Source: a virus
Length of the DNA: 41,125 bases
Virus record (IMG/VR): IMGVR_UViG_3300006923_000053
Location: 1-41,125 of that record
Direction: 5' to 3' (one strand)
Part shown: piece by piece, positions 1,681 through 38,735 of the stretch
Numbering within the stretch: the first letter of the stretch is position 1
How the letters are laid out: every line of letters starts with the position of its first letter
Made by a program: the position numbers and the translations under genes
Notes under the pieces: generated by a model
Databases searched by the model: none
What the model was told of the DNA's origin: nothing
The model's input: only the letters and a program-made list of their open reading frames with translations

Positions 1681-4600
1681 ATGGCACAATGCCCAGAAAT
1701 TGAAATTTATGATGATGATCCTTTTATTTATTATGCAAGAGCTTTAATCGATGCGTTCAAGCAGAGGTATGGCACAGAACTTAGCTCACATACTAATAAA
1801 AATGTTTTTGAAGAAGGTCTAGAAATAAACATAGATACAGATAGCGGCACCCCTTTTGACGACCCACTTCCGGAGACCTATTATATTGATACTAAGGAAG
1901 CTGGTGGGTTTAGTGACTGGAGTGGGGCTTTGCCTTACTATATAAAGGGTCCTAAATATACTATATTTAGCGATTATAGTATAAAGGAATGGTCAGTGGA
2001 TGCAACGAGGACGACGACAGACGAGGAGGACGATTGGATAAGCATGGCCGGGTGTTTGGTTGTTCACCCTATGTTAAGAGTAGACTATGAAAGATATGTA
2101 GAAAAGGGTAGATCTGACACATACTGGGAAAACTGGTTCTCGACTGAAGAAGAGCTGCGAGAGGATGTTTTTAAAGAGGGGCCAGGCAGCCTTGGAAGTA
2201 CTTCTGACGATCCAATGACTGATGCCCTTCAGTTTGCTTTCTTACTAGAAGTATTAGATTCCTTTCTGCACATTAATGAAGACAAGAAAACCTCAGATGA
2301 GCATTGGCTTAAAACTAGTATGCAAAAATTCACTTGGTGTCAGATGTTTTGGTATGGCTATGAAACGCATGATGTGGAGACTACAACAGTGCCTGGGATT
2401 GGGGAATTTGCTGACAGAACACAGTTAGGAAAACAAGCTGGCTCTCCAAGCGCACCAAATGTTGGAAGCGGCGCTGGACTCCCAGTATGGGCTGGCGAAT
2501 TAGACCCTGAACCACAGGGTTCCCACACAACTTCTATTAGGTATTATCCCAAAAAAGGTGCCCGAAAAACAGTTAGCTCGGTCGACGACGGCGTAACAAA
2601 CATTGATGGTCGTGGGTGGGGAGCAATTCATTCCAATTGGTGCCCAGATAGGGATGAACACTTTCTAGGACACTCAGTAAGAATTGTGGATGCTGATTAC
2701 AGGGCATTCGTAACATGGTTGGAAAAAGCTATAACTATTCTGGATGATGCTGGGATAGGTCCCGGTTCGTCGTGGTACGACGGAATCCTAGAAGATGCAG
2801 GGTATGGTAACCTAACTCAGACTGAATGCAGCCTCCCTCCTTATGGGGGCTCTATGGATTATGATGCTCTTAGCGATTCTTGGACCAACTCTTGCAGCAT
2901 GAAAGTATTTCGTTCCATGGTGGATAAGATCTATTTTAGCGGAAGTGCTTCGCTCGATGAGATACTCCACCCTGATTCATTAGATTTTTGGTATTCTTTT
3001 TTGGAAGGCCATAACGCATCCCCAGCGTTGTCCACTGAAATCCTAAACCAAGCAATAATGAATTCTGGAGTTATTGGGGTAGAGTGCGACTCAATAGGGT
3101 CGGCTATAGATATTGGCTTAGACTTCCAACCGATTAATGCAAGCGATTGTAAAGATATAGTAGGCCCTCCTATAGTTGAAACTTACATGACTTGTATCCC
3201 AAACCCGCAAGCCTTGACTCCCAACTGGCTAAACCAGACAGAGGAAGAACCGTTTTTAAATCAAAAAACTTGCGAATACTCTATTGTTATGTTGGCCGAT
3301 CCTCCCGATTGTAGCCAAGCATACTTAGATTCTTTTATTCCATCTGCGATGGACAAGCTTTTAAGCTACTATAATAAAGAGAAAACAACGACTTTCTTAG
3401 ACTTATCAGATGGTACTGGGGTCAATTTGAATTCAAAAGATTCATTGATAGACGGAAGCAGTGGTTTTTATTTGGATGGTATAGTCTTTTCTGGCACGGC
3501 AAGAGTTAAGGATTTTTATATTCCCCCAAGACCATTGGCCAAAACAAAGGTTCTTATAACTGTATCTGCCGAAGAATTTAATAGAATACTCGATAAGACA
3601 CCCTCAGTAGAGGAGCAACCTCTATCCTCTGTCCATTACGACGGAGAATCTTCTTTTGTTGTTTTTCTGGTATCAGAGATGCAGAGCATATTTGATAAAG
3701 TAAGCTATGGCCTTGAGTTATACGAAAATTCTTATGCTCATTGGCATTTGGAGACAGGAAGGACCATAAAGGGTCTGAATCTAACCGCAGAATCCAGTAG
3801 GATTATGAATTTCTACAAAGAACTAATGCTTTTGTTTAGAGAATCTGGGTACCCCAAAGATGATTTAGAGTGGGTAGAGATAGGGTTTTCACCAACTTAT
3901 AAGATTGAGTATATAAAAGTACAAAAGCCATTTAGCCCTCCGTTTAGTCTGGAAAAAGGAGTTGATTCTTTTATAAATCGCCCTGTGGCAGCAGATGCCA
4001 CAGCAATGGCCTATATTTCACAATTGCCAAATATAAAAACAGATATGATGGCAAGGAATTCTATGACATGGTACGATATGGTGAAAAAATATCGATACCC
4101 TGAGATAGAAGAGAGCTATGGTCTCAATTTAACCTCCCCAGTGGTTGAGGGGAATGAGGGCATTAAAAAACTTTCTGAAGTGGCTTGTCCTGGGGGAACC
4201 TCCGCTGGTGTATTCGAGGGTAAAGCAACTGCTGGCGAATGGGCAATGAGCCAAGTAAACGATATCAAAAGCGCTCTCCTTTCCCAATTAAGCGCAAATC
4301 CTTGCGTCCTGGTTGATCATAAAATCCTTGAGCACCAGGGCAGAGAAGACTTTGCTATGCAAATAACAGATATGACTCTTAAGGAATACTTGACGAGCGA
4401 TAGGTTTATTAACGATCTCCCAGAGCTTTTGGTGAGGGGAAGATATGATGATATTAACGCTTTATATGGTGGTATGTTAAACAATCTTGGTATGTGTGGT
4501 TTATTTGACTTGATTAAAGCTGCTGTGGATTGTGCGCTTAACGCCTTGGGATACGATGATTCGGTTAGCATTATTGCGGCAGCAGCTATAAGAGGCATGG

Positions 4601-7600
4601 ATGATGAGTTTATTGGGAATTTTATCAGCAGTATGTCCCCTGAAATGCAAGAAGTAGTCGTAGCCACCATCCGAGAAGCCATGCCCCAGCTTTTGCCTTT
4701 CTTATCAAGCTTTGTCACGGTCACTATAGTAGACAACGATGGAGCAACTATAGAGCCAGTTTATGATAGAAGGGCAAGTTATACAAGTACAGATGTACCT
4801 TTTGGTAGTTTAGGAGACCAGTCTTTCAGAGGGATTACTCAAAGTCCTGGTGCCGTTACTGCTGAGGTCTCCTTAAGCAATCCACCAGGCTCTATAGGGT
4901 CTATTGGGGGAGACAATCGATACCCAACACCTCAAGATTACGGCGAACTAAAAAATGTTGTTGCTGACTTGGTAATGAACGATCTTCTAAACGCAGATGA
5001 TTTATTAGACATCTTGAATACCTTGCCGGGAGCTGGGATAGCCATGTCTATCCTAGAAAAAATAGATAAATTTTGTGCTGTTCCTCCTTTGTTCTACCCA
5101 CCGCTTAAGGAGTTTATTAAAATTCCTGGTGTGAATATAGACGTTTGTGAATTGCAAGTCGGAATAACCGTGCCTATAATGCCAAAGATAAGGTTTAATA
5201 GTCTAGGAAAAATATTAATTGATAACGCATGGAGGGTTCTAAAAGAATTATTAATTCGTCTTCTGATTTTAATATTAAAGAAAATTCTTGAGATAATAGC
5301 GGAGGAACTATGTAAAACGAGGGTTGGCGCAGATCCATTGAATTTGCGTGAAGCTATGCTTAATGGAATATGTGGGGACCTCAACGTAGACTCTGCGGTC
5401 ATGGATGACGCTTTAGGAAATATTATGGGGTCCATAGGTTCTTGTTCTGACCCAGTAGCTCTTGGTAGGTACATAGACAATGTAGCTTCAGTAGTCACAC
5501 AGTGCGAACTACTTGACCTTATTACCGGGGAAGGTTCGGATAATCTCTATGATCTTGTTATTGAAATAACTAAAAATGATCCTGTTACTGAGCCCCTCTC
5601 GGAGTGTTTATATGATAAACCCTCTGTCCACCAGTTTTTCAAATCAATCGGCGTATTTGTTGATTTAGAGGCTCTTTGTATTGATGACGCAACAAACCTT
5701 CCGGTTAGCAAAGAAGTATGTGATAATCTTGGCCTTCTCAATGTATTCAGATCGGTTCGAGCAGATGCACTCCGCGAAAAGGGAGTAGACGAGGAATGTA
5801 TAGAAGACCAGCTATGCAAATTAAGGGAAAGAACCGTATCAGATTTAGAAGACCTTATGGGCCTATTACAAGCTGGTATATTTGACAGTGTTATTCCAAA
5901 TATTTTTCATGATGTTAACGATCCAGATAAGCCTTCGTTGCTGCCAGCGGCATTACCGGATGAAAGTATAGCTATGGATACAATGTTTAATTCTATGTTT
6001 GATGCCATGGCTGTTTCTTTTACAGAAGATATAATAGGTCGTCGTGGTTTTCTGAATATGGTCTTAGCCGATTCGAGAGGTCGTGGATATAACCAGCATT
6101 TAAAATTTGAACAAATGTTTGGTCCTTCTTTCTTTAACCTTTACGGTTCTTATGGGACAAGAGCACATCCTCCTCGCGATGAGTGGGGCAAGGGAGCAGA
6201 GGGCAACAAGGTGCAAGACCATAATGGCTGGGTCACAGGGCCTCTTAATTTTACTGACGACGCAGCAAATTTCTTCTGGTTGCCTTTCTTGTTTAACCCA
6301 CTTAGTGCTGACGGGACTCAGCCAGAAGCTGAGGGTGATCCTGATAATGATCAAAACGGGGACGGGGCGCCGGAAACACATGGTCGTCCCCCAGCTATTG
6401 GTGGCCTGCCCGACAAGGTCGCAGGACATTTACAATATACTTTAGAAAATTTCTCTGTATCTTATAGTCTTGCCCCTGCTGACCCCTACTCTGTGGTTAT
6501 ACCTTGGATCGGATATGAAGAAGAAAATCCCTTAACATTTATGTTTAGTTATGATTATTGGACTCCCCCTCCAGAAGGACAGGAGTATACATGGGATGGT
6601 CATCGAATGAAGGTAGTTATGACTTCTGAGGACTGGGAAGGCACGGGAGACTCCTTTACCGAAACTCTTGCTTATATGGATGTAAATTCTTCTGTTTCCC
6701 CAGGGGTGGCCGATTTTAAGGAGACTGTATTGGATCTTGATCTTAAATTTACCTCGCCTGACTATTCTTGGTTAGAATTGCTTAAATATAAGGTAGACTT
6801 AGCATTTGGGGGCGAAATTTCCCCTAGTGCTAGAGGCTCTACCTTTAAACCTATTAACAGAAATCTTATAAATCAATTAGCGGCTAAACTAGCTTCGAAT
6901 GATCGTATATTCAACTATGGGTTTAGGGACGCAGATGGTGAAGTCGAACCGCCAAAAGTTGTGTACTTTCACCAGACTGCCGAATTTGACGACATAGCCG
7001 CCGCTATTGAAAGGTATGGAGGTTCCGAAGGTAATCCGCCATTCTATATTAGATATCCTGATCCTCAAGGGTTTTTAAAGATAGCACAAGATATAATTCC
7101 TTCATTTAAGCCATGTGAGACACCTGACGGGTCTACGAATTTTCCAAAATTTAAGGAATTAGCTAAAGTAGCTGATGCTTTCGCTGGCAAAATAAAAGAT
7201 GATCCACGAGGATGGAGAAAGGTTGACGGGGTTACAACTGAAGTAGAATCTCCTTTCGACAGAATACTGCCCAAAGCGGCTCTTGGAGTAGTAGAGGGTA
7301 CAATAGCAGCGACTATAAGAGTTTATGCTGTTGAATTTATGTTAAAAGCTTTGCCTGCTCTTAGCGTGCTAGGCATGGAAAAAGGGAATTATGGTGATGT
7401 TTTTGCTGACTATATCATAGAAAATATGGAGAAGGGCCTTCTTACCTCTGGTCGGGGCAAAAGATATAACAAGAAGTATGAAGATTATTGGTGGCTATTC
7501 TTAGAACAGGTGGTTCAGAATTTTGGCCTAAAAGTTCAGCAAGGAATAATATTGGATGAGACTCCAGAGGAAAAAGAGGCGAGAGATTTAATTAACCAAC

Positions 7601-8847
7601 ATGTAAAAAATAATTGGACGTACACTCCACCGGAAGTGTTTACTGGGCTGTTCTCAGCTAAAAAAACCTCAACAGATAGAAAAGAAAAGTGGGACGCTGT
7701 TTTCCAAGGTGCGGTTGCAAGCCCAACCGCAGGCCTTCCGGTTTATATTCCCTCGCCAGTCATTGGTTACTGCAAGACAATATTAAGAAGATATGTTTTA
7801 GAAGAATTTGAAAGAACCTCGGAAATCTTTCAGGAGGTTGTTAAATCAGACTATACAGATATAGATGACTTCATATTAAAAAATAGAAGCCTTATTGGCG
7901 GGGCAATAGACACGTCGACGAATGGTGGAGACGGTGGCCCATTAGATGTACCTTCTGCTTCATATTATGCCTCATTGGCGGCAGGAGCCTCAGCTGATCA
8001 TCCTCTAGAGAGGCTGGAAGACCCAGACCCAGGGGGTAGGGGTCTTCCATTTATTCTTGAAAGATATGTTGTCATTGGCGGAACGCTCACAGACGCCAGT
8101 GCGAACGCCAGACAACTTGGGTATGTAGCTAATCTTGCCGACTTGGAAAATATACTCTCTGGCCACTCGATCGTCGCAGATGATGGGTGGAGGTTTGGTT
8201 TAAGACTAACATTTATTCCGGAAATGTTAGGAGCTTCTGTAGCAAGCGATTTTGAATTCCCAGCAGCCTCGGATTTGACCGCAGATTTTGGTTATATGAA
8301 TAAAGCCTACCACTCATACTATAAAAATGCAATTCCCTTAGCAGAAGCCGAGTTGGAAATAAATGAAGGGGAACTCTATACAGCGCAGCTTTACAACGAT
8401 TATTTACAAAATCTAATTTGCAAACTCATAGAAACCCCAGAGTATAAGATGTTGTTTGAGCATTGTTTCCCGATGCCAAAGTACATGGCGTTATTAGCTA
8501 TCTATTGTGGAACGACATTTGTTCCTTCTCTGGCTAATGTTGAAGATGGCTGGGCTGCTAAGAACGATGGTTCTGGTGGTGGTCGCTGGATAGGTCTGGG
8601 CAAATTTGGTGGAATGAATACTTGGAGAGGGAATGAGGGGATGGTGAATTCCTTTCAAAATACTAAAAGAACGGCTCGACAGATACTAGAAGCTACTTGC
8701 TACACTAATTACGATTATGTGGACAGAGATGGTATGACCCCCGAAGAAGTATATATAGAAAATGATAGTCCAACTAGAAATAGCGGGGTAGACTTAAAGT
8801 GGTGGCAATGGAGTTCATTACGCCCCTCACCGTGTAAGGAGGAATAA
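1681..8847 (+). CDS. Giant putative baseplate/tail structural protein (2388 aa)
   Basis: I do not recognise the family. ATG at 1681 has AAGGA 7 bases upstream. The protein is acidic, rich in Asp/Gly/Tyr/Trp in the first 800 residues, and carries scattered Cys. A strongly hydrophobic and basic helical stretch lies at about residues 1182-1212 (around VLKELLIRLLILILKKIL), followed by a Cys-containing helical region to about residue 1450. The last third again looks globular and aromatic-rich. Immediately downstream come gp25- and gp6-like wedge genes, so it is probably a virion protein of the baseplate or hub region. Its length is exceptional for a wedge component; T4 gp7, the largest I know, is about 1000 residues. 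It could combine several proteins that are separate in T4. No signal peptide, protease or hydrolase motif was noticed. Confidence 0.5.
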   Translation: MAQCPEIEIYDDDPFIYYARALIDAFKQRYGTELSSHTNKNVFEEGLEINIDTDSGTPFDDPLPETYYIDTKEAGGFSDWSGALPYYIKGPKYTIFSDYSIKEWSVDATRTTTDEEDDWISMAGCLVVHPMLRVDYERYVEKGRSDTYWENWFSTEEELREDVFKEGPGSLGSTSDDPMTDALQFAFLLEVLDSFLHINEDKKTSDEHWLKTSMQKFTWCQMFWYGYETHDVETTTVPGIGEFADRTQLGKQAGSPSAPNVGSGAGLPVWAGELDPEPQGSHTTSIRYYPKKGARKTVSSVDDGVTNIDGRGWGAIHSNWCPDRDEHFLGHSVRIVDADYRAFVTWLEKAITILDDAGIGPGSSWYDGILEDAGYGNLTQTECSLPPYGGSMDYDALSDSWTNSCSMKVFRSMVDKIYFSGSASLDEILHPDSLDFWYSFLEGHNASPALSTEILNQAIMNSGVIGVECDSIGSAIDIGLDFQPINASDCKDIVGPPIVETYMTCIPNPQALTPNWLNQTEEEPFLNQKTCEYSIVMLADPPDCSQAYLDSFIPSAMDKLLSYYNKEKTTTFLDLSDGTGVNLNSKDSLIDGSSGFYLDGIVFSGTARVKDFYIPPRPLAKTKVLITVSAEEFNRILDKTPSVEEQPLSSVHYDGESSFVVFLVSEMQSIFDKVSYGLELYENSYAHWHLETGRTIKGLNLTAESSRIMNFYKELMLLFRESGYPKDDLEWVEIGFSPTYKIEYIKVQKPFSPPFSLEKGVDSFINRPVAADATAMAYISQLPNIKTDMMARNSMTWYDMVKKYRYPEIEESYGLNLTSPVVEGNEGIKKLSEVACPGGTSAGVFEGKATAGEWAMSQVNDIKSALLSQLSANPCVLVDHKILEHQGREDFAMQITDMTLKEYLTSDRFINDLPELLVRGRYDDINALYGGMLNNLGMCGLFDLIKAAVDCALNALGYDDSVSIIAAAAIRGMDDEFIGNFISSMSPEMQEVVVATIREAMPQLLPFLSSFVTVTIVDNDGATIEPVYDRRASYTSTDVPFGSLGDQSFRGITQSPGAVTAEVSLSNPPGSIGSIGGDNRYPTPQDYGELKNVVADLVMNDLLNADDLLDILNTLPGAGIAMSILEKIDKFCAVPPLFYPPLKEFIKIPGVNIDVCELQVGITVPIMPKIRFNSLGKILIDNAWRVLKELLIRLLILILKKILEIIAEELCKTRVGADPLNLREAMLNGICGDLNVDSAVMDDALGNIMGSIGSCSDPVALGRYIDNVASVVTQCELLDLITGEGSDNLYDLVIEITKNDPVTEPLSECLYDKPSVHQFFKSIGVFVDLEALCIDDATNLPVSKEVCDNLGLLNVFRSVRADALREKGVDEECIEDQLCKLRERTVSDLEDLMGLLQAGIFDSVIPNIFHDVNDPDKPSLLPAALPDESIAMDTMFNSMFDAMAVSFTEDIIGRRGFLNMVLADSRGRGYNQHLKFEQMFGPSFFNLYGSYGTRAHPPRDEWGKGAEGNKVQDHNGWVTGPLNFTDDAANFFWLPFLFNPLSADGTQPEAEGDPDNDQNGDGAPETHGRPPAIGGLPDKVAGHLQYTLENFSVSYSLAPADPYSVVIPWIGYEEENPLTFMFSYDYWTPPPEGQEYTWDGHRMKVVMTSEDWEGTGDSFTETLAYMDVNSSVSPGVADFKETVLDLDLKFTSPDYSWLELLKYKVDLAFGGEISPSARGSTFKPINRNLINQLAAKLASNDRIFNYGFRDADGEVEPPKVVYFHQTAEFDDIAAAIERYGGSEGNPPFYIRYPDPQGFLKIAQDIIPSFKPCETPDGSTNFPKFKELAKVADAFAGKIKDDPRGWRKVDGVTTEVESPFDRILPKAALGVVEGTIAATIRVYAVEFMLKALPALSVLGMEKGNYGDVFADYIIENMEKGLLTSGRGKRYNKKYEDYWWLFLEQVVQNFGLKVQQGIILDETPEEKEARDLINQHVKNNWTYTPPEVFTGLFSAKKTSTDRKEKWDAVFQGAVASPTAGLPVYIPSPVIGYCKTILRRYVLEEFERTSEIFQEVVKSDYTDIDDFILKNRSLIGGAIDTSTNGGDGGPLDVPSASYYASLAAGASADHPLERLEDPDPGGRGLPFILERYVVIGGTLTDASANARQLGYVANLADLENILSGHSIVADDGWRFGLRLTFIPEMLGASVASDFEFPAASDLTADFGYMNKAYHSYYKNAIPLAEAELEINEGELYTAQLYNDYLQNLICKLIETPEYKMLFEHCFPMPKYMALLAIYCGTTFVPSLANVEDGWAAKNDGSGGGRWIGLGKFGGMNTWRGNEGMVNSFQNTKRTARQILEATCYTNYDYVDRDGMTPEEVYIENDSPTRNSGVDLKWWQWSSLRPSPCKEE
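8836..8842 (+). promoter_or_regulatory. Strong Shine-Dalgarno for the gp25-like gene
   Basis: AAGGAGG lies inside the last codons of the 2388-residue gene, 7 bases before the ATG at 8850 and only a few bases before the upstream stop (8845-8847). It is among the best ribosome binding sites in the window and fixes the start of the gp25-like gene. Confidence 0.75.
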
Positions 8848-8849
8848 AA

Positions 8850-9233
8850 ATGGCTGGTTTTTCGCCAAAGTTGCCGCTAACGCTAGACCCAGATGATGGA
8901 TATACCTTGACTAAAACGCTTAAGGAAGTCGCCAAACAAAACTTTAAAATGCTTGTTTTGACGAACCCAGGGGAAAGAATGATGGATCCTGAGTTTGGAG
9001 TTGGCATATTGGCCTATTTATTCGAGAACAATACCAGGACGACACAGGGGAGGATAGATGCTAGGATAAGAGAACAGACATCCAAGTATCTACCATATAT
9101 TCAGATTGAGAACATTCTATTTAAATCTATGGAAGATAGGCCAGAGTTGGCAGAAAATTTCTTAGGAGTTTCAATAGCCTATAGCATAAAGAAGCTGGCC
9201 GTTAGAGATGTCTTAGAAATTCCAACAAATTAA
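8850..9233 (+). CDS. 25: Baseplate wedge protein, gp25-like (GPW/gp25 family)
   Basis: 127 residues, the usual size for T4 gp25 and its relatives. The core motif NPGERMMDPEFGVGI (about residues 39-53) is the family signature: an E-R pair followed by a P-E-F-G-G-type turn. After it comes the helix LAYLFENNTRTTQGRIDARI, and the chain closes with a two-strand end (PYIQIENILF ... LGVSIAYSI). In T4, gp25 joins gp6 and gp53 in the inner baseplate, next to the sheath start. The family is lysozyme-related by name only, and no catalytic activity is expected. The start is set by the strong AAGGAGG at 8836-8842. The next gene is the gp6-like partner, the same pairing seen in contractile injection systems generally. 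Confidence 0.92.
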   Translation: MAGFSPKLPLTLDPDDGYTLTKTLKEVAKQNFKMLVLTNPGERMMDPEFGVGILAYLFENNTRTTQGRIDARIREQTSKYLPYIQIENILFKSMEDRPELAENFLGVSIAYSIKKLAVRDVLEIPTN

Positions 9234-11066: not shown

Positions 11067-12646
11067 TGGCTATTAAAAGGTATTTTGCCTCAAAAGACAA
11101 TACTATTACAAATGCTTTTAAACCTGATTTGAGTACTCGTGCGACCTCCTCAAATATGGGACTGTCAGACGTTTCAGAAATATTTTCCATTTATGGGCAA
11201 ACCTCCAGCTCGTTAGGTCTTAGCTTGGAAGAGGCTAGAATTCTTATTAGCTTTCCGACGACCACTATGGCCACTGACAGGACTAGCGGTGCTATCCCGG
11301 CTAGTGGTAGTGTATCTTTTTATCTAAAGATGTTCAATGCGGATCATGGACAAACCCTGCCACAAAACTATTATATGGAAGTCAAAGCTGTGACTGGGTC
11401 CGATGCTAATTCTAGAGATTGGCAAGAGGGGTATGGCCTTGATATGGAAAGCTACTCTGATTCTACGCAAGATATTACCGGTTCTAACTGGATAAATATG
11501 ACTGGAAGTGAGGCATGGACTACTGCTGGTGGGGATTACGCGGACCCAGACACGGATTTATCTTCTTCTTTCACACAGTATTTTGATGATGGCGTAGAAG
11601 ATTTAGAAATTGACATCACAACTCTTGTAGAGCAGTGGCTAAGTTCGTCGGCAAACTCAGAGACTGCTGTGAATATGGGTCTTAAACAAAATTATGGTGT
11701 TGGTGTGATGCTATCGTCTAGCCATACCGCAGAGTTCAGGTCCTTTTACACTAAAAAGTTCTTCGCTAGAGGTTCAGAATTTTATTTCAAAAGGCCCGTG
11801 TTAGAAGCCCGGTGGGATTCTAGAAAAAGAGATAACAGAGGAAACTTTATCTATAGTAGTTCTTTGGCGACACCTGACGAAAACTTAAATAAAATTTATC
11901 TATATAATTATTTCCGTGGCCAACTGAGGAACATACCTGATGTTGGAACTGGAAATATTTATATTAGTTTTTACTCTGGGTCAGCTGACGATTCCGCTCC
12001 TTATGGTAGCGCCTTAGAATTGGTCGTGGATGGCACCCATGTGACTGATGCAGCACGCAACACAGTCGTCACAGGGTCTTATTCGACTACAGGTATCTAT
12101 ACGGGGAGCGTGTCCCTCACGGGCGCGTCAACGCCTCTCACGACGATTTATGATGTATGGTTTAAAGGTGGGGATACCATCACCAACGCTTCAGACGCAT
12201 TAGTCCGATATCATACTGGCTCCATTAGACCAAAAACTTTAGATTCTTACGATGTTGCTCCATCTGATAAGTATATAACGAGTATCACAAACCTTAAGTC
12301 TGTTTACTCAAATACTGAGACCGCTAGATTTAGGGTGTTCGCCAGGACTAAGGATTGGTCTCCAACAATTTATACTGTCGCCACTACAGTAGTTGAAAGC
12401 ACGGAGATAGAAAGTGGTTCTTATAAAGTATTTAGGGTTATTGATGAACTTGACGTTATACCTTATGGAACTGGTAGTGATTTACATACGGCAATGAGTT
12501 ATGATCTATCTGGCAACTACTTTGATCTTGACATGTCAATACTACAAGTAGATTATATGTATGGAATTAAATTTACTTATTACAATAACTCAATAGGAGA
12601 TTGGGTGGAACAACCTGAGGTATTTAAATTTAGGGTTGAGAAATGA
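11066..12646 (+). CDS. Structural protein with DNRLRE/carbohydrate-binding-like N-terminal half
   Basis: 526 residues; the ATG overlaps the previous stop by one base (TAATG) and AGGAG lies 10 bases upstream. The first ~245 residues look like a beta-sandwich of the DNRLRE type: KRYFASKDNTITNAF at the start, an internal IDITTLVEQWLSSSANS helix, then NYGVGVML and FYTKKFFARGSEFYFKRPVLEARW. DNRLRE-type domains share the pattern 'DVTxLVQxW ... NxGxxL ... F.S.E....RP.L'. The rest (from about residue 255, DNRGNFIYSS onward) is Thr/Ser/Gly-rich and probably a string of beta domains, with a terminal pair of strands. It sits between wedge genes and the giant LamG protein, so it is likely a baseplate-peripheral protein, perhaps in place of T4 gp7/gp8-type wedge parts. 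The carbohydrate-binding reading is inference from pattern only. Confidence 0.55.
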   Translation: MAIKRYFASKDNTITNAFKPDLSTRATSSNMGLSDVSEIFSIYGQTSSSLGLSLEEARILISFPTTTMATDRTSGAIPASGSVSFYLKMFNADHGQTLPQNYYMEVKAVTGSDANSRDWQEGYGLDMESYSDSTQDITGSNWINMTGSEAWTTAGGDYADPDTDLSSSFTQYFDDGVEDLEIDITTLVEQWLSSSANSETAVNMGLKQNYGVGVMLSSSHTAEFRSFYTKKFFARGSEFYFKRPVLEARWDSRKRDNRGNFIYSSSLATPDENLNKIYLYNYFRGQLRNIPDVGTGNIYISFYSGSADDSAPYGSALELVVDGTHVTDAARNTVVTGSYSTTGIYTGSVSLTGASTPLTTIYDVWFKGGDTITNASDALVRYHTGSIRPKTLDSYDVAPSDKYITSITNLKSVYSNTETARFRVFARTKDWSPTIYTVATTVVESTEIESGSYKVFRVIDELDVIPYGTGSDLHTAMSYDLSGNYFDLDMSILQVDYMYGIKFTYYNNSIGDWVEQPEVFKFRVEK

Positions 12647-31154: not shown

Positions 31155-32582
31155 ATGGCTTTTTATAAATTCTCAGATAATGATTTATTCGTTAACCATA
31201 TAAAAACGAACCCATCATGTAAATTTGATATGTACGACTCCAAGACTTATTATAATAATAAGTCAGAAATGGTAGGAGCGTTTGTCAGTAATGTACCTGG
31301 AATTCCTACTGGACACATCAGTCTTCATGAAGTAAATGTAGATAGAAACTCTACAGACACTGGACTTGTTTTTCCGTTTCTGCAAAGAGACAGTTCTTTA
31401 ACAACCTTTAAAACAATCTCCACAAGTGATTACTATTCCACTGATTATGGTTCTTCAATTAATGCTGTGAGTGGTGCTGAGTATCCCTTGTCTGCTTCTA
31501 TAACAAGGGAATTCTTTGATGATAATCATTTTTCTACAATGAAAACGAATAACGAGACAACAGTTGATACCGAACGCACAGATCATGGGGGAGAACTAGC
31601 GTTGTCAGACCCACCGTTAACCGGAGATGGATTACCTAATTATAAAATAGATGATGATTTTATTTATGCTCCGACAACACTAGCAGGTTCAAGTAGTCTT
31701 GATAGGTATATAAGACTTAAAGGATTATTGTCCTCTTCGCATGTGAACACACTTGCAAGTACGATTAACCATTATTCGAACATGAGCCCCCACTTTAGAT
31801 ACTCAGCCAGTTTTGGATCGGGATATCAAAGAGATTTAGACACAGTACCAGTAAACCTTATAAGCATTCCAAGCATTTTTTATGGCTCAAATCTTGAGAG
31901 AGGGACAATAAGTTTAAAATATTATCTTACTGGCACTTTAATCGGAGAGATCAAAGATGAAAATAAAAATGGAGAACTAATCCAAGTAGGCCCTGAAGGG
32001 AGCACGGGATCCGGCAGTGTAGCTGGGATTGCCCTATACAGCCAAGGATTTGTTCTACTTACAGGTAGTTGGGACCTACAAACTACTGGTCCGTCTAGTG
32101 ATGCTCAATTGGATTATAAAAACACTGGAACAGCTGTTACCTCATCATGGCTTTACTTTGCTGCTGGAACGAATGACGGTATACCTGCGGACGGTGATAG
32201 CTTGGGAACAAGATATTCTGCAAGCTACTCCATGCATTTCTCAGGCACAAATGAAGTGCCGGTTATAACTATGTTTGCCCATGCAGCAAAAGGTCACCTT
32301 AACTATTCTAATAATCCGACGTATTTAAGCCACAGTACGGCAGAAAGCGATTACAATGCCATAACAAGTTCAATTTCGTATTTAGAACCAGACTTAGCAA
32401 CAACAAATATTGTTAGCTCTTCCTTTTCAAACCCAACGGCCAGTTTCGCCAAGGAGACTTATATTTCAAGGATTGGTCTTTATGATGAAAATAGAAATTT
32501 AATTGGCGTGACAACTGTGGCGAAACCGGTTAAGAAGACAGAAGATAGGGAGTTTACGTTTAAAATGAAGTTGGATGTATGA
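31155..32582 (+). CDS. Structural protein, paralogue B of a tandem pair
   Basis: 475 residues. The N-terminus (FYKFSDNDLFVNHIKTNPSC, then KFDMYDSKTYYNN) differs from its upstream paralogue, whereas the second half follows the same order: FYGSNLERGTISLKYYLTG, AGIALYSQGFVLLTGS, NYSNNPTYLS and a terminal YISRIGLYDENRNLIG followed by VAKPVKKTEDREFTFKMKLDV. The shared half points to duplication with replacement of the N-terminal domain. Ser/Thr/Gly/Tyr-rich, beta-type, consistent with an exposed virion protein such as a fibre or decoration. The stop overlaps the start of the RuvC-like gene by 4 bases (ATGA), so the nuclease is translated from the structural message. Confidence 0.55.
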   Translation: MAFYKFSDNDLFVNHIKTNPSCKFDMYDSKTYYNNKSEMVGAFVSNVPGIPTGHISLHEVNVDRNSTDTGLVFPFLQRDSSLTTFKTISTSDYYSTDYGSSINAVSGAEYPLSASITREFFDDNHFSTMKTNNETTVDTERTDHGGELALSDPPLTGDGLPNYKIDDDFIYAPTTLAGSSSLDRYIRLKGLLSSSHVNTLASTINHYSNMSPHFRYSASFGSGYQRDLDTVPVNLISIPSIFYGSNLERGTISLKYYLTGTLIGEIKDENKNGELIQVGPEGSTGSGSVAGIALYSQGFVLLTGSWDLQTTGPSSDAQLDYKNTGTAVTSSWLYFAAGTNDGIPADGDSLGTRYSASYSMHFSGTNEVPVITMFAHAAKGHLNYSNNPTYLSHSTAESDYNAITSSISYLEPDLATTNIVSSSFSNPTASFAKETYISRIGLYDENRNLIGVTTVAKPVKKTEDREFTFKMKLDV

Positions 32583-33112
32583 TACTAGGATTGGATGTTA
32601 GTACGTCAGTGACAGGATATACAATTTTAGATGAAGATGCAAACATAATAAAATGTGAAGCATGGGATTTAAGGAACAAGCGATACTTTCCGGATCTCTA
32701 TAGTAAAGGATCGCTTATTAAAAAAGAGTTGGAGGAGATAAAAAAAGAATATCTCATCTCTCACATCTATATTGAAGAACCCTTCACCTTCTTTCGAGCA
32801 GGAGGCTCAACAGCCAAGACAATGGCAAAGCTACAAGCATTTAATGGAATAGTATCCTGGCTGTGTCGTGACATTTTTAACTTTAATCCGACACACATCT
32901 CTTCTGCCAAAGCAAGAAAGTTAAATGGTATCAAAGTATCAAGAGGACAAAAGGCAAAAGAAGTTGTTTTGAACTATTTATTGAAGAATGAAGAGTCTTT
33001 TACTATCGAATATACTAATAGGGGAAACCCTAAACCCGTTTCATACGATAGAGCAGACAGCCTAATTATAGCGAGAGCCGGTTCTCGACTGCTTGGAGAA
33101 AAACCAGAATGA
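32579..33112 (+). CDS. RuvC-like Holliday junction resolvase
   Basis: 177 residues, the size of bacterial RuvC. The RNase H-type fold signature is present: GLDVSTSVTGY at residues 4-14 (catalytic Asp6 on the first strand), IYIEEP at 63-68 (acid Glu66 or Glu67), and SYDRADSLIIA at 155-165 (Asp157 and Asp160 on the last helix). Such enzymes cut four-way and branched DNA as dimers; in phages they debranch replication intermediates before packaging, the role T4 fills with the unrelated gp49. The gene overlaps both neighbours by 4 bases (ATGA at each end), with no strong ribosome site, so translation is probably coupled. It is the first DNA-metabolism gene after the structural block. Confidence 0.85.
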   Translation: MILGLDVSTSVTGYTILDEDANIIKCEAWDLRNKRYFPDLYSKGSLIKKELEEIKKEYLISHIYIEEPFTFFRAGGSTAKTMAKLQAFNGIVSWLCRDIFNFNPTHISSAKARKLNGIKVSRGQKAKEVVLNYLLKNEESFTIEYTNRGNPKPVSYDRADSLIIARAGSRLLGEKPE

Positions 33113-36100
33113 GTCTAAAATTAACGGAAGCCCAGATTTTTCAGATGATTGAAGAGGAGTCTAAATTTCTTGTTGAGGTAAAGCAAGAGATTCCGCCCGA
33201 CCTAATCTGGGGGGAGATAGAAGGCAAAATTGTTAAATGGTGGCAACTGATAGACTTGTGGAAAGGCTATCGGGCTCCTGAGAAATGGAAAAAAATAAAA
33301 GGCTTTTCGCCAGCAAGAAAAGCTTCGTTTCTGTATAGTGCTATGGGAGGACAAGTAGGAACTGATGAGGGTATGGTTTATGCTTGCCTCGCCAACTCCA
33401 AGGAAGAGAACGAACTAATTGAAGCAAAATATAATGAGCGACATGGCGACAACGCCCTGAAACAACACTTGTCAGGTGAACTGAGGGATTTTGGGGAGGT
33501 TAAGTATCTCACTATAGCCTTGCTACTTTTAGAGGGACACAAACGGTGGCTTTGGTCAGCGGAGAACTCGCGGGTGAGATTGGGAGCGATAGAAGCGGAA
33601 TACGCAGACGAAGAGGAACCAACAGCTGAAGAGGAATACGAAGAGGAATACGAAGACGAAGAGGAATACGAAGACGAAGAGGAATCAGCAGACGAAGAAG
33701 AGCCAGCAGTTCCTCCTGCTTCTACACCTACTCCTGCTTCTACACCTACTCCTGCTTCTGCTCAGAGAGGGAAAATCTTATTCCCTAAAAGCGATGAGGT
33801 TGGGCAAATTCAGGCAATCTTGAATAGGAGAGGTGCAAGCCTTACTCCAGATGAATTGTTCGGCCCTAAGACTTTGGCTGCATGGCAGGAGGCTACAAAT
33901 AGCACAACCGTACCGAGATCGGCGAAAGAAGCTCTAAAAGCTCTAACCCCACAGGCAGTCCCACAGGCAGCCCCACAGACAGCTAGTGCTCCTGGGTATA
34001 AAATTCCCCCAAGAAAGATTCAAGCCCAGATTCTTGCTTACGACAAAGCAATAAGACTAAGTACGAATGGTTGGAAGCCCGAGGGCACAGGGATCAACTA
34101 TGCTGCCCCAAAACCCAAAGATCTCCAAAATGATAAGTTTTATGCCCAGTTTGACTTGAAGGACCTCCAACGAAAAATAGCAGATCTTACCACACAAGCT
34201 CAATCCGCCAGAGTGAACATTAAAAAAAAGAATCTAACTAAACAATTAACCGCAGCAACCACAAATTATAAGGAAAGAAACCAGCGTATCCTTAATGCGA
34301 AGCAAGAGCGAGAGAAATTGGAAAGAAAATATTCTACATCTTCCCTTAGCGAAGCGCAGATACAAGAGATCATCCAGGAAGAGACTCTTAAGGTATTAAA
34401 AAAAAAACTAGATGAAGACATAGGAGCACAGTTGGGCGCTGCCGAGAAAAGCTCGGCTCGTGGGTTGGGTTCCCTGGGAGCTAAGAAAGGAACCTTCGCT
34501 TCAAAAGTATCGACAGCAGCCAAAGGAGCTTATGGTGCTACAAAGACTGCTGGTCAGGCCATGGGATTCATCGGGGATAGAGGTAGCAAAGCTCTAGTAG
34601 CGGCAGCCGGGAGTGCTAAGAAGGGGACCGGGTCAGCTCTGCTCAGATTTCTTGGTGTTGGTATAGTAGGTAGACTGGTAGGTTGGTTCTTTTCCTGGCC
34701 TGTGATGGTTGGCTGGCAGGTGTGGGATGAGCTTGTATCCCCATTTACAATAGAGGCAGAGCGCGGAGACATAACAAAAACTTACAAGCAAATGGCTAAT
34801 TCACAGGAGGCCTCCCAAAAGAGAGACAATATAGATAAATTCTCTGGGGACTTCCTTATCAAGGTCCAGGAGTACGTGAAGGGCTATAAAGGCTTTAGCT
34901 TCTTAGACCTCGTTTTAGACCTTACGGGTGGCTTGACAAATATAATTCTTAATTTTAACACCGATTTGGTTGGGTTTATCACTTCTAAATTCACAGACAA
35001 TCCCGTGTCAGCTGCGATTAAGAAGAGGAGAGTCGAAGCTTCTGTGCAATTCTTTAAGGTTTTACAAGAGTACGGACCCGAAGTTAGAGACAGCGAAGGA
35101 AACATCGTTCCCAACACCCCCCAAAAGGTACAGAGTTTAGAACAAGCCCTTAGTACCAAGATTGATGAGTTTCTTAAGCAAGAATACGATATCCTGTTAA
35201 CAACTGATATGGCGGAACTAATAGGAGATTCTATTCCCACCAAAGACGAAGCGAAAGCAGAATTGCAAGCGTCGGCCAATCCATTAATCAAAGCGTGCTT
35301 AGACTATTATAGTTTTATAGGAGGGGCACAGGCTTCCCAAGGCAGAAAAGCTTCTGCCACTACTACAGCAGGCCCCACAGCAGGCCCCACAGCAGGCCCC
35401 ACAGCAACTGGGGCAGCAGCAGGGACCGCTGTTGCAGCCACCACTAGAACAACACCTAAGCCTGCTACCTACTCTGGCAGAGCTAGGGAGCTGACGCAGA
35501 AAGTTGTTGATCTTCTTAAGTCACACGGGGTTAAGGACAGCGACCAGCAAGGTGCTTGGATTTCTTGGTCGAAGCGAGTGACCAAGAAGGACAACACTGT
35601 TAGAGACCAAACTATACTCTCTGTTATAGAGGAGTGGTTTGGTCTCACAGGTGAAAAAACTATGAGAGAAAACCGCGAACTCATGGAAGCTGTTGGCCTT
35701 GTTTTGCCTGTGAAAGGTGAATATGAATTCGAAGATTTTGTTCGCTGGCTTGAAGACAACAATGAGCAGTCTGGTTTGCCACCCAAATATGGGCTCTGGG
35801 ATCCCAGACATCTTCGGAGATATTTAAACTATGTTCGCACCTTCAAGAGAAGTGAAGCCCGTGCTGCAAGGCAAGACAAAAGGTCAGAAAGAATTTCTAA
35901 CAGGGCCAAAGAAAATAGAGAAGAAATCTTGTCCTTAGCCCGTGAGCTTGAAAGCCTTGGGGATTCCAAAAAGGACGCCAAGAAGGTAAATCGAATAAAT
36001 AAGAAGATTGAGAGATTGACAGGTGCAGCCGAAAGAAAAGATACGAGAGCGCAGAAAGTGCAGAAAGTCAAGCTCAGAAAAAAAGATGTTAAGAATTTAG

Positions 36101-36717
36101 AAGAAACTATATATAAACATGTGGAGAACAATAAAATGAAGATTACTAGGAAAGAACTAAATAGAATTATTCTACAGGAAGTGGCTGCTGTCACCGAAGC
36201 TGGCAGTGAATGGCTACAGGGTAGGGACCCTGGTGCGCTTGTCGGTAGACCCGGTGCCACCCTTGGCGACCTTACAGACATAGAGAAAGAAACATTGAGG
36301 TCTAAGGAGTGGGCGGATACGGCTATGGATATGGATGCTGGATTTGATTACGACGAGACAGATAGTATCGATTTTGAAGATGGGGTCGAAGTGCTTAAGC
36401 AGCAAGCCAACAAATTAGCAGATGAGATAGCTGGTATGTATATGCAGTATGAAGACCTAACTAAAGAGCACACCCGATTAAGAGGGGAACGTAAGAGCAC
36501 CAAGTGGCCTAGAAAGAGAAGGGAGATAGAGACTAAGATAGCTGGTATCGTTAAACGGATGAACGGCATAAAGGGTCAGATTAATAAGGCTTGGAGTAAA
36601 TCAGTGGAGCTTCCCCCCACCGGCTACACCGAAAAAGTTAATGATGCACTACAGAGCCCTGGATCAAAGGCATATTCTGCCCTCATGGCTAAAGTTCGAA
36701 GTGGTAGAACTGTTTGA
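33109..36717 (+). CDS. Mosaic protein with annexin-like repeat, PG-binding-like motif and three amphipathic tags
   Basis: 1202 residues; ATGA overlap with the resolvase, GGAG 10 bases upstream. In order: amphipathic tag 1 (residues 4-21, LTEAQIFQMIEEES); an annexin-like repeat (about 70-141) with AMGGQVGTDE, LANS and LSGELRDF; an acidic E/D/Y run (163-199) and a Pro/Thr/Ser linker; a peptidoglycan-binding-type motif (about 228-262, GQIQAILNRRG ... LFGPKTLAAWQ); a Lys-rich coiled-coil (345-410); tag 2 (413-430); Gly/Ala/Lys-rich stretch; a hydrophobic segment (about 510-536, FLGVGIVGRLVGWFFSW); a helical region; a Thr/Gly/Pro/Ala linker (750-785); a basic coiled-coil (910-1000); tag 3 at about 1010 (MKITRKELNRIILQEVAAV); and an acidic plus helical tail. 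Not a recognised family as a whole. The mix suggests a virion-packaged or envelope-acting protein; function is unknown. Confidence 0.6.
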   Translation: MSLKLTEAQIFQMIEEESKFLVEVKQEIPPDLIWGEIEGKIVKWWQLIDLWKGYRAPEKWKKIKGFSPARKASFLYSAMGGQVGTDEGMVYACLANSKEENELIEAKYNERHGDNALKQHLSGELRDFGEVKYLTIALLLLEGHKRWLWSAENSRVRLGAIEAEYADEEEPTAEEEYEEEYEDEEEYEDEEESADEEEPAVPPASTPTPASTPTPASAQRGKILFPKSDEVGQIQAILNRRGASLTPDELFGPKTLAAWQEATNSTTVPRSAKEALKALTPQAVPQAAPQTASAPGYKIPPRKIQAQILAYDKAIRLSTNGWKPEGTGINYAAPKPKDLQNDKFYAQFDLKDLQRKIADLTTQAQSARVNIKKKNLTKQLTAATTNYKERNQRILNAKQEREKLERKYSTSSLSEAQIQEIIQEETLKVLKKKLDEDIGAQLGAAEKSSARGLGSLGAKKGTFASKVSTAAKGAYGATKTAGQAMGFIGDRGSKALVAAAGSAKKGTGSALLRFLGVGIVGRLVGWFFSWPVMVGWQVWDELVSPFTIEAERGDITKTYKQMANSQEASQKRDNIDKFSGDFLIKVQEYVKGYKGFSFLDLVLDLTGGLTNIILNFNTDLVGFITSKFTDNPVSAAIKKRRVEASVQFFKVLQEYGPEVRDSEGNIVPNTPQKVQSLEQALSTKIDEFLKQEYDILLTTDMAELIGDSIPTKDEAKAELQASANPLIKACLDYYSFIGGAQASQGRKASATTTAGPTAGPTAGPTATGAAAGTAVAATTRTTPKPATYSGRARELTQKVVDLLKSHGVKDSDQQGAWISWSKRVTKKDNTVRDQTILSVIEEWFGLTGEKTMRENRELMEAVGLVLPVKGEYEFEDFVRWLEDNNEQSGLPPKYGLWDPRHLRRYLNYVRTFKRSEARAARQDKRSERISNRAKENREEILSLARELESLGDSKKDAKKVNRINKKIERLTGAAERKDTRAQKVQKVKLRKKDVKNLEETIYKHVENNKMKITRKELNRIILQEVAAVTEAGSEWLQGRDPGALVGRPGATLGDLTDIEKETLRSKEWADTAMDMDAGFDYDETDSIDFEDGVEVLKQQANKLADEIAGMYMQYEDLTKEHTRLRGERKSTKWPRKRREIETKIAGIVKRMNGIKGQINKAWSKSVELPPTGYTEKVNDALQSPGSKAYSALMAKVRSGRTV
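33316..33531 (+). other. Annexin-like repeat within the 1202-residue protein
   Basis: Residues about 70-141 line up with a single annexin repeat: AM-G-x-x-GTDE, hydrophobic positions on the second helix, LANS in place of the L..RS turn, a Tyr on the third helix, then L...L.GEL..F and a LTIALLL helix. The acid E124 is 38 residues after D86, the same spacing as in the type II Ca-binding loop of annexin repeats (from memory of annexin A5: GLGTD ... E72). One repeat only; annexins normally have four. Confidence 0.6.
33604..33705 (+). repeat. Acidic short tandem repeats (GAAGAGGAATAC-type)
   Basis: In-frame near-repeats of GACGAAGAGGAA and GAAGAGGAATAC encode an E/D/Y-rich stretch (EEEYEEEYEDEEEYEDEEE). 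This is an intrinsically disordered, highly acidic spacer between the annexin-like part and the peptidoglycan-binding-like part, and a likely site of length variation. Confidence 0.75.
33715..33759 (+). repeat. 18-bp tandem repeat, 2.5 copies
   Basis: CCTGCTTCTACACCTACT occurs at 33715-33732 and 33733-33750 with a partial third copy, encoding (PASTPT)n. It forms a flexible Pro/Thr/Ser linker directly in front of the peptidoglycan-binding-like motif. Confidence 0.85.
33790..33894 (+). other. Peptidoglycan-binding-like motif (PG_binding_1 type)
   Basis: Residues about 228-262 show GQIQAILNRRG, a short turn, then DELFGPKTLAAWQEA. This matches the usual 'vrxLQxxLnxxG ... DGxFGpxTxxAv' pattern of the three-helix PG_binding_1 domain, though shorter, and with E in place of the usual G of 'DGxFG'. 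It is flanked by disordered linkers, as such modules usually are. Confidence 0.55.
34398..34407 (+). other. Run of ten A residues inside the coding frame
   Basis: TTA AAA AAA AAA CTA encodes L-K-K-K-L just after amphipathic tag 2. Both other frames end at once after the run: TGA at 34413-34415 in the -1 frame and TAG at 34409-34411 in the +1 frame. Slippage would give a truncated product of about 433-435 residues. Confidence 0.6.
34636..34716 (+). other. Putative membrane segment in the 1202-residue protein
   Basis: About residues 510-536 are hydrophobic with two Arg (LLRFLGVGIVGRLVGWFFSW, then PVMVGW). It could be a single transmembrane or membrane-inserting helix. It is preceded by a Gly/Ala/Lys-rich stretch and followed by an acidic region. 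Could also be a buried helix. Confidence 0.45.
35365..35406 (+). repeat. 12-bp tandem repeat, 3.5 copies
   Basis: ACAGCAGGCCCC is repeated perfectly at 35365-35376, 35377-35388 and 35389-35400, followed by ACAGCA. It encodes (TAGP)3TA, a flexible linker between helical regions of the 1202-residue protein. Its GC content stands out against the surrounding AT-rich DNA. Confidence 0.9.
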
Positions 36718-36748: not shown

Positions 36749-37681
36749 ATGAGAGAAAAGCTTCAGATCCTGAAAGATGTTCTTGGACAGTACCGTGTGT
36801 CGAACCAAGAACATCTTTTTCTATGTCCATATTGCGAACACCACAAAAGAAAATTCTCCATTAATATAGAAAAGAATGTCTATAAATGTTGGGTTTGTGA
36901 TACTCGTGGCCTTGACATATATCAGATTATTCGTAAGCACGGCTCTTTTAATAATGTCCAGCAGTGGAGGGTCCTCACCAACAAGGTAGAAATAGGTGAA
37001 TTTGACAACCTTTTTGGAGAACCAGAGGAGATAAAAGAAGAAAAGATACCTCTTCCAAAAGAGTTTGTCTCTCTTGTTAATGATGCTCCTGTCACAGCTA
37101 GACCACCTCTGAACTATCTAAAAAAACGTGGAGTGACAAAAGAAGACATTCTTCGATGGAAAATAGGATATTGCTATGATGGGGTCTACAAAAATAGAAT
37201 TATTGTCCCATCATTTGGTATGACGGGCTATGCTAATTTCTTTATTGCCCGTTCATATAACGGAGATTGGAAGAGATATAAGAATCCCCAAGTCAATCGA
37301 AATATCATCTTTAATGAGTTATACGTTGATTGGGACAAAGATGTTATTTTAGTTGAGGGTGCCTTTGATGCTATTCGAGCTTATTCTATTGGCTCATCGA
37401 TACCTCTTTTGGGGTCCACATTGAGGATAGAATCCAAACTATTCCAATCAATAGTGAGGCATGATCCAAAAGTTTATGTCGCATTAGATGAAGATGCGCA
37501 ATATAAATCTTCAAAGATAACTCAAAATCTAATGAAATATGGTATAAAAACTTATTCAATAGATACTTCTGGCTACGAAGACATAGCAGAAATGCCAAGA
37601 GAAGTTCTTCAAATTAGAAAAGAAGAAGCAACTGTAATGGATTCAAACAACTATTTATTCCAGAGAATAAGGAGTTTATAA
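36749..37681 (+). CDS. DNA primase, zinc-finger plus TOPRIM (DnaG/gp61 type)
   Basis: 310 residues, similar in size to T4 gp61. Residues 24-53 form a zinc-binding ribbon: CPYC (C26, C29) with His31/His32, and CWVC (C47, C50). The TOPRIM catalytic core follows: ILVEGAFDAIRA (residues 200-211; E203, D207), VALDEDA (244-250; D247, D249) and a last Asp near IDTSG (272). It would make RNA primers for lagging-strand synthesis, working with a replicative helicase not seen in this window. No helicase domain is fused. The ATG has no Shine-Dalgarno and coincides with the predicted transcription start of the promoter at 36714-36742, so it may be translated leaderless; no other Met precedes the zinc ribbon. 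Confidence 0.88.
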   Translation: MREKLQILKDVLGQYRVSNQEHLFLCPYCEHHKRKFSINIEKNVYKCWVCDTRGLDIYQIIRKHGSFNNVQQWRVLTNKVEIGEFDNLFGEPEEIKEEKIPLPKEFVSLVNDAPVTARPPLNYLKKRGVTKEDILRWKIGYCYDGVYKNRIIVPSFGMTGYANFFIARSYNGDWKRYKNPQVNRNIIFNELYVDWDKDVILVEGAFDAIRAYSIGSSIPLLGSTLRIESKLFQSIVRHDPKVYVALDEDAQYKSSKITQNLMKYGIKTYSIDTSGYEDIAEMPREVLQIRKEEATVMDSNNYLFQRIRSL

Positions 37682-37682
37682 T

Positions 37683-38735
37683 ATGCTTAAAATTTCAGAT
37701 AATGACATTATGTCTTTGGTAAATAAATCCTTCCAGAGGGAAGCCAGAAAAAGGGGCCTTCTCGCTGAAGAAGAGGGTAACGAAGGGATCAAACAATTAG
37801 ACATAAAGCTTTTTAAACTCTTTATAAATGAAAAGTTATGGGGTACTTCTAGGGAGAAATCTCTAGAGGGTAGACTATTAAATCAGGTAGTGTCCACTAT
37901 TAAAGGAGAGACAGCATTAGAAAAAATACTAGATCTTAATAATATTATTAATGACCAAGTAAAGACTTCTACGAAAGATTGTTCCTTTGACCAATTATTT
38001 TCTAGAATAACCCTGTTAAACACAATTAGTTCGTTGGTTCACGAATTCGAGCCAGGAGCAGGCGGGCAAATATTAGAAGGATTTTTAGCAGGATTGCTGG
38101 GTGGCCGACAAGTTAAATCCCTCGGAGGCCAGCAGGAAGACTTGGTAGATTTAGAGGCAGGAGAAAAATTTTATAGTATAAAACTTATGACACCGAATAC
38201 AGAACACAAAGCAGGAGCAAAGGGTAGCTATGACCTCTTATATCAAAATCTTTTTATGGAAGGTAAAGCAATAGAGTATATTATCTTTTTGAAAGCTACG
38301 GAAAACAAGATAATAGTAAAGAGCTTTGTTATTACAAAAGATAATATATTATCTTTTTTTAGTGATAAATATCGATCAAAAGTGGAGGGGTACCTCTCCT
38401 TGAGGATGGAAGGGACAGAATCAACCATAGCTCTAAAGCAAACTGGTTTGGGGAAGAAGTTTCATTTACGAAAGTCCTACTACAGTAGATCAGAAAGCTA
38501 TGGCGAGGGGGTGTTAGATATAGATACAATAGCTATGCTTAAGGCTGCCGAGGCTAATTTGATTGAACTGGCAGTGGAAGCTAGTAACCTTATCACATCG
38601 GTTAATAACATGATAGAGGGTGTGAACTCTTATCTCTTGGCAAGCAGCCTGCCATCCGACGCTCAAGCAAAAGTCCAGGACGTTAGTAATAATATAAATA
38701 TATTTGCACAAAAACAACTAACATCTTGTGGCTAA
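37683..38735 (+). CDS. Unknown protein, possible PD-(D/E)XK-like nuclease fold
   Basis: 350 residues, starting one base after the primase stop, so clearly in the same operon. The N-terminus (LKISDNDIMSLVNKSFQREA) is amphipathic and resembles the tags of the 1202-residue protein. Residues 118-142 (LVHEFEPGAGGQILEGFLAGLLGG) form a Gly-rich helix pair with acids; then EDLVDLEAGEKFYSIKLMTP (about 152-171) suggests two strands with D153/D156 and K167, reminiscent of the PD-(D/E)XK core, and a GSYDLLYQN helix follows. The usual D/E before x-K is Ser here, so the nuclease assignment is weak. The C-terminal ~80 residues are helical and end with Cys. Context between primase and SbcDC supports a DNA-related role. 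Confidence 0.45.
   Translation: MLKISDNDIMSLVNKSFQREARKRGLLAEEEGNEGIKQLDIKLFKLFINEKLWGTSREKSLEGRLLNQVVSTIKGETALEKILDLNNIINDQVKTSTKDCSFDQLFSRITLLNTISSLVHEFEPGAGGQILEGFLAGLLGGRQVKSLGGQQEDLVDLEAGEKFYSIKLMTPNTEHKAGAKGSYDLLYQNLFMEGKAIEYIIFLKATENKIIVKSFVITKDNILSFFSDKYRSKVEGYLSLRMEGTESTIALKQTGLGKKFHLRKSYYSRSESYGEGVLDIDTIAMLKAAEANLIELAVEASNLITSVNNMIEGVNSYLLASSLPSDAQAKVQDVSNNINIFAQKQLTSCG

Follow-up and report, generated by a model that had tools for sequence, protein, structure and literature searches.

INTRODUCTION

The annexin fold, which binds calcium and membranes, is best known from animals and plants; in eukaryotes, annexins are the classical example of proteins that bind membranes in a Ca-dependent manner. 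A 2014 survey described about thirty bacterial annexin homologues joined to varied domains and reported no annexin in viruses (PMC3894181). Single annexin domains also occur in PVC-delivered polymorphic toxins, where they were proposed to aid in breaching target membranes (PMC3482391). In Myxococcus xanthus, the annexin-repeat protein MXAN_1899 is encoded in a variable region where prophages also reside, and it has been likened to a contact-dependent inhibition protein (PMC5030687). The internal proteins of the T4 head carry N-terminal targeting propeptides of 10–19 residues; the T4 protease gp21 cleaves after L/I-X-E, and Alt is cleaved at its C-terminus as well (PMC9026906). Among the ejection proteins of giant phages, mature SPN3US gp47 is predicted to have a transmembrane helix (PMC9026906, PMC5694885).

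We analysed a complete IMG/VR virus record of 41,125 bases (the window), which reads as an uncultivated T4-like phage. It encodes a 1202-aa protein with one annexin repeat. In common with the repeats of eukaryotic annexins such as A3, A5 and A6, this repeat has a predicted five-helix form, a GTDE loop, an acid at +38 and similarity that extends past the loop. It differs in that the loop is one residue longer, that it lies inside a phage polyprotein and that it is missed by PF00191. The protein also does not have the architecture of a whole annexin, i.e. four or eight repeats with a Ca-dependent phospholipid-binding core. The viral repeats described below are joined to varied domains, as in the bacterial annexins of the survey; in contrast to those, the present repeat belongs to a phage gene and lies at a swap site (PMC3894181). 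As described for the PVC-delivered toxins, annexin is an accessory domain here, but those proteins are bacterial and have a C-terminal toxin domain (PMC3482391), whereas no catalytic or toxin domain was matched in the 1202-aa protein by Pfam or PHROGs. Unlike MXAN_1899 as portrayed in the cited text (PMC5030687), it is a phage protein. A targeting propeptide at the N-terminus, and protease sites that end in E, are features that it may share with the internal head proteins of T4 and the ejection proteins of giant phages; the accounts of those proteins drawn on here mention no annexin repeat (PMC9026906, PMC5694885), and packaging of the 1202-aa protein is proposed.

RESULTS

The locus

The gene for the 1202-aa protein is flanked by genes for a RuvC-like resolvase and a DnaG-like primase. 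Its features and those of its neighbours, all on the + strand, are as follows.

32579..33112, +, RuvC-like Holliday junction resolvase, upstream neighbour (family match)
33109..36717, +, ORF of the 1202-aa protein with the annexin repeat
33109..33177, +, N-terminal amphipathic motif, residues 1–23, KLTEAQIFQMIEEESKFLVE, ending in L-V-E (LVE 21–23); a candidate capsid-targeting propeptide, with similar starts in L002, L094, L121 and L097
33138..33681, +, segment swapped relative to L002 (DNA comparison)
33310..33558, +, annexin repeat, predicted helices A–E (AlphaFold2, PDB fold matches)
33340..33369, +, A–B loop AMGGQVGTDE, residues 78–87 (sequence)
33478..33480, +, E124, candidate type II Ca ligand, D86+38 (sequence)
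33592..33702, +, acidic linker, residues 162–198 (sequence)
33808..33900, +, weak peptidoglycan-binding-like stretch, residues 234–264 (PF09374, E 0.11, below cut-off)
34342..34416, +, motif copy 2, residues 412–436, SLSEAQIQEIIQEETLKVLKKKLDE (sequence)
34636..34692, +, hydrophobic segment, residues 510–528 (sequence)
36133..36198, +, motif copy 3 with an internal Met, residues 1009–1030, KMKITRKELNRIILQEVAAVTE (sequence)
36749..37681, +, DnaG-like primase, downstream neighbour (family match)

Elsewhere in the window a gp25-like baseplate gene is present at 8850 (PF04965, E 7.6e-13), and a second baseplate gene gave a weak gp6-like match (E 0.087). One gene matches a phosphoesterase and an SMC-type ATPase and is, in our reading, SbcCD-like. 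The 2793-aa protein encoded at 12643–21024 matches the lectin-like family Laminin_G_3 weakly, at E 0.00036 and below the cut-off. A 350-aa protein with no clear family match is encoded at 37683–38735; in the relative L121 the same place is taken by a 469-aa gene whose start is similar.

Sequence evidence for the annexin repeat

A first-pass annotation of the window had placed an annexin repeat at 33316–33531 (residues 70–141), and this assignment was confirmed by phmmer, by a held-out viral profile and by the predicted fold. Residues 68–150 resemble annexins alone among PDB sequences. With residues 1–164 as the phmmer query, all 12 distinct PDB sequences at E<=10 were annexins; the best match had a whole-sequence E of 7.4e-5, and the best single stretch of the same chain had 0.0064. 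The similarity reaches beyond the GTDE loop: a query of residues 60–149 in which the five loop residues before E87 were masked again returned only annexins (12/12, best E 0.0011).

When 2409 ORFs were searched with a profile built from 37 other viral repeats, the target being left out, the target was found with 26.5 bits (E 7.2e-7). Scored against residues 56–150, the same profile yielded 32.7 bits, compared to a maximum of 8.2 over the 1889 scored of 2000 shuffles. Masking of the motif in both profile and target lowered the score to 5.7 bits, which was reached by 2 of the 1751 scored shuffles (of 2000). Thus, the loop supplies much of the profile signal, as expected from a set selected by its loop. 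The protein contains one GTDE loop, and the held-out profile gave 26.5 bits for the whole protein versus 25.8 for the best stretch, in agreement with the annotated single repeat. In the proposed PF00191 search, neither the 1202-aa protein nor the window had a match at E<=10; at that threshold 7 of 14 control genomes give matches, none above the cut-off. From these data we conclude that this is a genuine annexin repeat, its homology being well supported. A chance motif is ruled out by the held-out profile match, the masked PDB search and the shuffles.

Predicted fold

AlphaFold2 modelling with the viral alignment yielded a mean pLDDT of 76.5 and placed helices at residues 68–80, 87–94, 98–112, 116–127 and 130–150. 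Block means were 80–96 over residues 61–120 and then 73, 64 and 55 over residues 121–150, leaving helix E uncertain. The five-helix arrangement by which the annotation was to be judged is therefore present in the model, with its last helix at low confidence, and annexins were the top PDB fold matches. Foldseek ranked annexins first with probability 0.99–1.00 and an rmsd of 1.7–2.8 over 61–77 columns in compact alignments; the best E was 0.09, and none was at E<=0.001. In VIA-align the annexin rows ran from Z 10.3 to 6.9, and the first row outside the annexins, giardins and annexin fusions was Astrotactin-2 at Z 6.9, values of a size that is not decisive by itself in helical proteins. Some of these alignments draw on two repeats of a chain.

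Geometry of the calcium loop

The annotation had given the loop as AM-G-x-x-GTDE. It reads AMGGQVGTDE, one residue longer than the usual AMxGxGTDE. The acid 38 residues past the loop Asp is where it was said to be (E124 from D86). A putative type II Ca site would accordingly have its canonical acid, E124, but a loop that is one residue too long. In the viral set the acid is at +39 in 22 of 37 repeats and at +38 in 9 of 37; for bacterial repeats, it is at +38 in 41 of the 61 modules among the matches listed. The position of the acid thus agrees with the canonical site and the form of the loop does not, and the sequence by itself does not decide whether Ca is bound.

Other viral and bacterial repeats

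IMG/VR was scanned with a DNA pattern for AMxGxGTDE. The 90 stretches obtained comprised 55 distinct ORFs, which were sorted by eye; 37 annexin-like modules were kept and 18 ORFs were dropped (e.g. an SbcC-like family). There are therefore 37 further distinct viral annexin repeats besides the target, in a set that was picked by loop pattern and includes close lineages (35 intact N-termini reduce to 23 non-redundant). The possibility of a one-off annexin phage is ruled out by these other repeats. Alignment A1 contained the target and 36 of the 37 viral modules, L005 being omitted. At E<=0.1, PF00191 matched 30 of the 37 A1 rows, which did not include that of the target. In a PDB search with the A1 profile, annexins reached E values as low as 6e-66; of 93 matches, the 60 listed are all annexins or annexin fusions. 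When 20 viral records were searched with PF00191 (19 of the set plus that of L002), 16 matched at E<=0.01 and 8 exceeded the curated cut-off, compared to 0 of 14 control genomes.

A search of viral contigs with the repeat alone returned no close relatives. Among the named phages of INPHARED, the whole 1202-aa protein had no match, the repeat had three chance-level matches (E 2–9), and queries from L003, L057, L042, L077 and L074 had none; hence these searches yielded no cultivated example. Annexin-like repeats (E<1e-5; at least 61 modules) were present in at least 41 of 119 loci with the pattern among the matches listed from genome records of bacteria and archaea. The target's best phmmer match among the 37 viral modules and the 61 bacterial ones of the matches listed was bacterial L202, with an E of 1.4e-6 for that small set.

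Several other observations were made during this survey. The at least 41 bacterial or archaeal loci exceed the about thirty homologues of 2014, and short repeats in the Bacteroidetes records L156, L164, L184 and L222 resemble viral ones. Three annexin-like genes are clustered at 3173–4930 of L026; a short gene between two of them has an N-terminal hydrophobic helix and looks peptidoglycan-binding-like to us, such that parts fused in other phages stand side by side. L048 has two annexin-like proteins in one virus record (2665–3414 and 4553–6247), perhaps a duplication.

Membrane and cell-wall parts

The annotation had also noted a hydrophobic segment, which we locate at residues 510–528, and a peptidoglycan-binding-like motif. 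A stretch of the latter kind does lie nearby, but it is weak. A hydrophobic segment is present in 20 of 38 viral annexin proteins (target included), and L026 and L042 have short annexin proteins with an N-terminal hydrophobic helix. A peptidoglycan-binding-like pattern of our own occurs in 11 of the 38, the target not being one of them. The Pfam family PG_binding_1 was matched in L069 (E 7e-10) and was weak elsewhere, save in the L094 gene at the same locus as the target (PF01471, 2.9e-15). A PHROG scan of 39 full-length proteins (37 of the viral set, the target and L002) gave endolysin phrog_2649 in 6, an internal virion protein with an endolysin domain in 5 and tape measure phrog_167 in 5. 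That some viral repeats are joined to membrane and cell-wall-binding parts hints at phage use at the host envelope.

Module exchange at the RuvC–primase locus

With the whole protein as query, one close relative was found, L002. Its DNA aligns with two stretches of the window, 32401 (the query edge) to 33137 with 94.7% identity and 33682 to 35800 (again the edge) with 90.5%. Between these flanks, 33138–33681 is replaced by unrelated sequence, except for a 33-base match in the acidic linker (33604–33636), and the left seam interrupts the coding sequence of the N-terminal motif, with the first 29 bases of the gene to its left. Because the flanks align while the intervening segment is unrelated, the annexin repeat is a swapped module. 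We conclude that it is an exchangeable front module of a phage polyprotein. Single-sequence structure prediction of the replacing segment was too poor for use (pLDDT 54.8). An A1 profile search of 17 related viral records, run without a positive control, found no annexin repeats.

The RuvC–primase region was compared across 30 loci, of which 27 could be judged by eye; L093 was left out because its contig ends after the start of a large gene at this place, and the RuvC side is missing in L099 and L111. RuvC and primase were adjacent in 22 of the 27, with no listed gene of >=110 aa between them. In the other five (L094, L095, L096, L097 and L121; the first three nearly identical in sequence) one or two large genes intervene, the first of which starts with a similar motif and otherwise differs. 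In L097 the motif gene adjoins a 392-aa gene (7989–9164) with a motif-like stretch at its C-terminus, KLFDIIKQEVRKFLML. Its pattern is one that we take to be of the M15-type peptidases; Pfam gives no support.

The repeated motif and the prohead protease

The N-terminal motif recurs internally at residues 412 and 1009 of the target, near 414 in L002 and near 501 in L094 and L121. Three of the five internal copies contain an internal Met, namely the target's third copy and those of L094 and L121, in each case after a basic stretch; the target's second copy and that of L002 are without it. The copies with Met look as if genes that each started with the motif had been fused.

A gp21-type prohead protease (PF03420) was identified in G021, G022 and G023, three relatives with a gene at the RuvC–primase place, with E from 3.5e-33 to 6.7e-37. 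PF03420 was matched in 14 of 25 records searched, among them 6 of 15 annexin-bearing records, many of them fragments; no match was seen in G001, which like the window is a fragment. The gene after the protease also starts with an amphipathic stretch, MKKSELKALLKPLIKECIKESILEEG in G023. In G001, a gene cluster at 2558–10416 of L123 has several amphipathic starts, two of them with MKLLFESWRRYxNE, and includes a 1701-aa gene; it is possible that this cluster encodes further packaged cargo.

Twelve of the 23 non-redundant viral annexin proteins have the triplet L/I-x-E in residues 10–35. When windows were drawn from elsewhere in these proteins the mean was 3.9, and 0 of 2000 draws reached 12; shuffled N-termini gave a mean of 5.8, and 7 of 2000 reached 12. 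Such triplets are frequent within the motif, and ordinary genes of four related contigs had one in the same residues in 86 of 231 cases. This site test is weak, given the frequency in ordinary genes and the seven shuffles. The enrichment is suggestive of propeptide processing, not proof of it.

DISCUSSION

Our working interpretation, which we hold tentatively and at a little short of an even chance, is that the 1202-aa protein is an ejection polyprotein, packaged in the head and processed by a protease, and that its annexin repeat serves to dock it on the membrane of the host. The N-terminal amphipathic motif would direct the polyprotein into the prohead, where a gp21-type protease would cut after L/I-x-E sites at this motif and at the two internal copies. 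The candidate sites are LVE (residue 23), LDE (436) and LQE (1024). The processed fragments would then be ejected with the DNA, and the annexin repeat, with Ca2+, would lay its fragment on acidic phospholipids of the host inner membrane. Beside it, the peptidoglycan-binding part may handle the wall and the hydrophobic part the bilayer. The first-pass annotation had offered roles in DNA entry, assembly or lysis; the relatives, with the motif at the same locus and a gp21-type protease, favour a head-packaged ejection protein over lysis.

The same features can be read in other ways. Peptidoglycan-binding domains are frequent on phage tails, the gene follows a block with baseplate genes that include the gp25-like one, and some members match the tape measure PHROG, all of which would suit a tail- or baseplate-associated protein for cell puncture or wall docking. 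We regard this as rather unlikely, because the direct neighbours are RuvC and primase, the motif is by eye absent from the starts of the tail genes of G021 and G023, and it is the gene after the protease that starts with a similar amphipathic stretch. A late role in lysis or envelope disruption, with the protein made in the cell as an endolysin-like or superinfection-exclusion factor, would draw on the hydrophobic segment, the peptidoglycan-binding domain of the same-locus gene in L094 and the endolysin PHROG in several members. It strikes us as improbable, since Pfam and PHROGs match no catalytic domain in the target and the three motif copies are left unexplained.

A further alternative concerns the repeat itself, which may have lost its membrane function and serve in assembly as a compact helical spacer or protein–protein domain, e.g. 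through scaffold or core contacts. The lengthened A–B loop and the prevalence of +39 over +38 among viral repeats would fit such loosely kept site geometry. Set against this are the canonical position of E124 in the target and the joining of viral repeats to hydrophobic segments or their occurrence in short proteins that carry a hydrophobic helix at the N-terminus, and we consider loss of the membrane function unlikely.

The annotation knew of no described function for a phage annexin module, and our searches of the open-access literature likewise listed no phage-annexin paper. Under the ejection reading of the 1202-aa protein, a broader proposal can be framed, which is possible but doubtful at present: that in many uncultivated T4-like and large phages annexin repeats are exchangeable effector modules, which are packaged in the head, injected and then docked on the host membrane from the inside, and that this offers a possible route by which annexins spread among bacteria. 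If true, this would be a viral use of annexins not described in the searchable literature. The origin of bacterial annexins is an open question, on which viral repeats, some of them in cargo proteins that look envelope-active, bear. Viral annexin repeats would also make the encounter of phage ejection proteins with the host membrane accessible to experimental tests.
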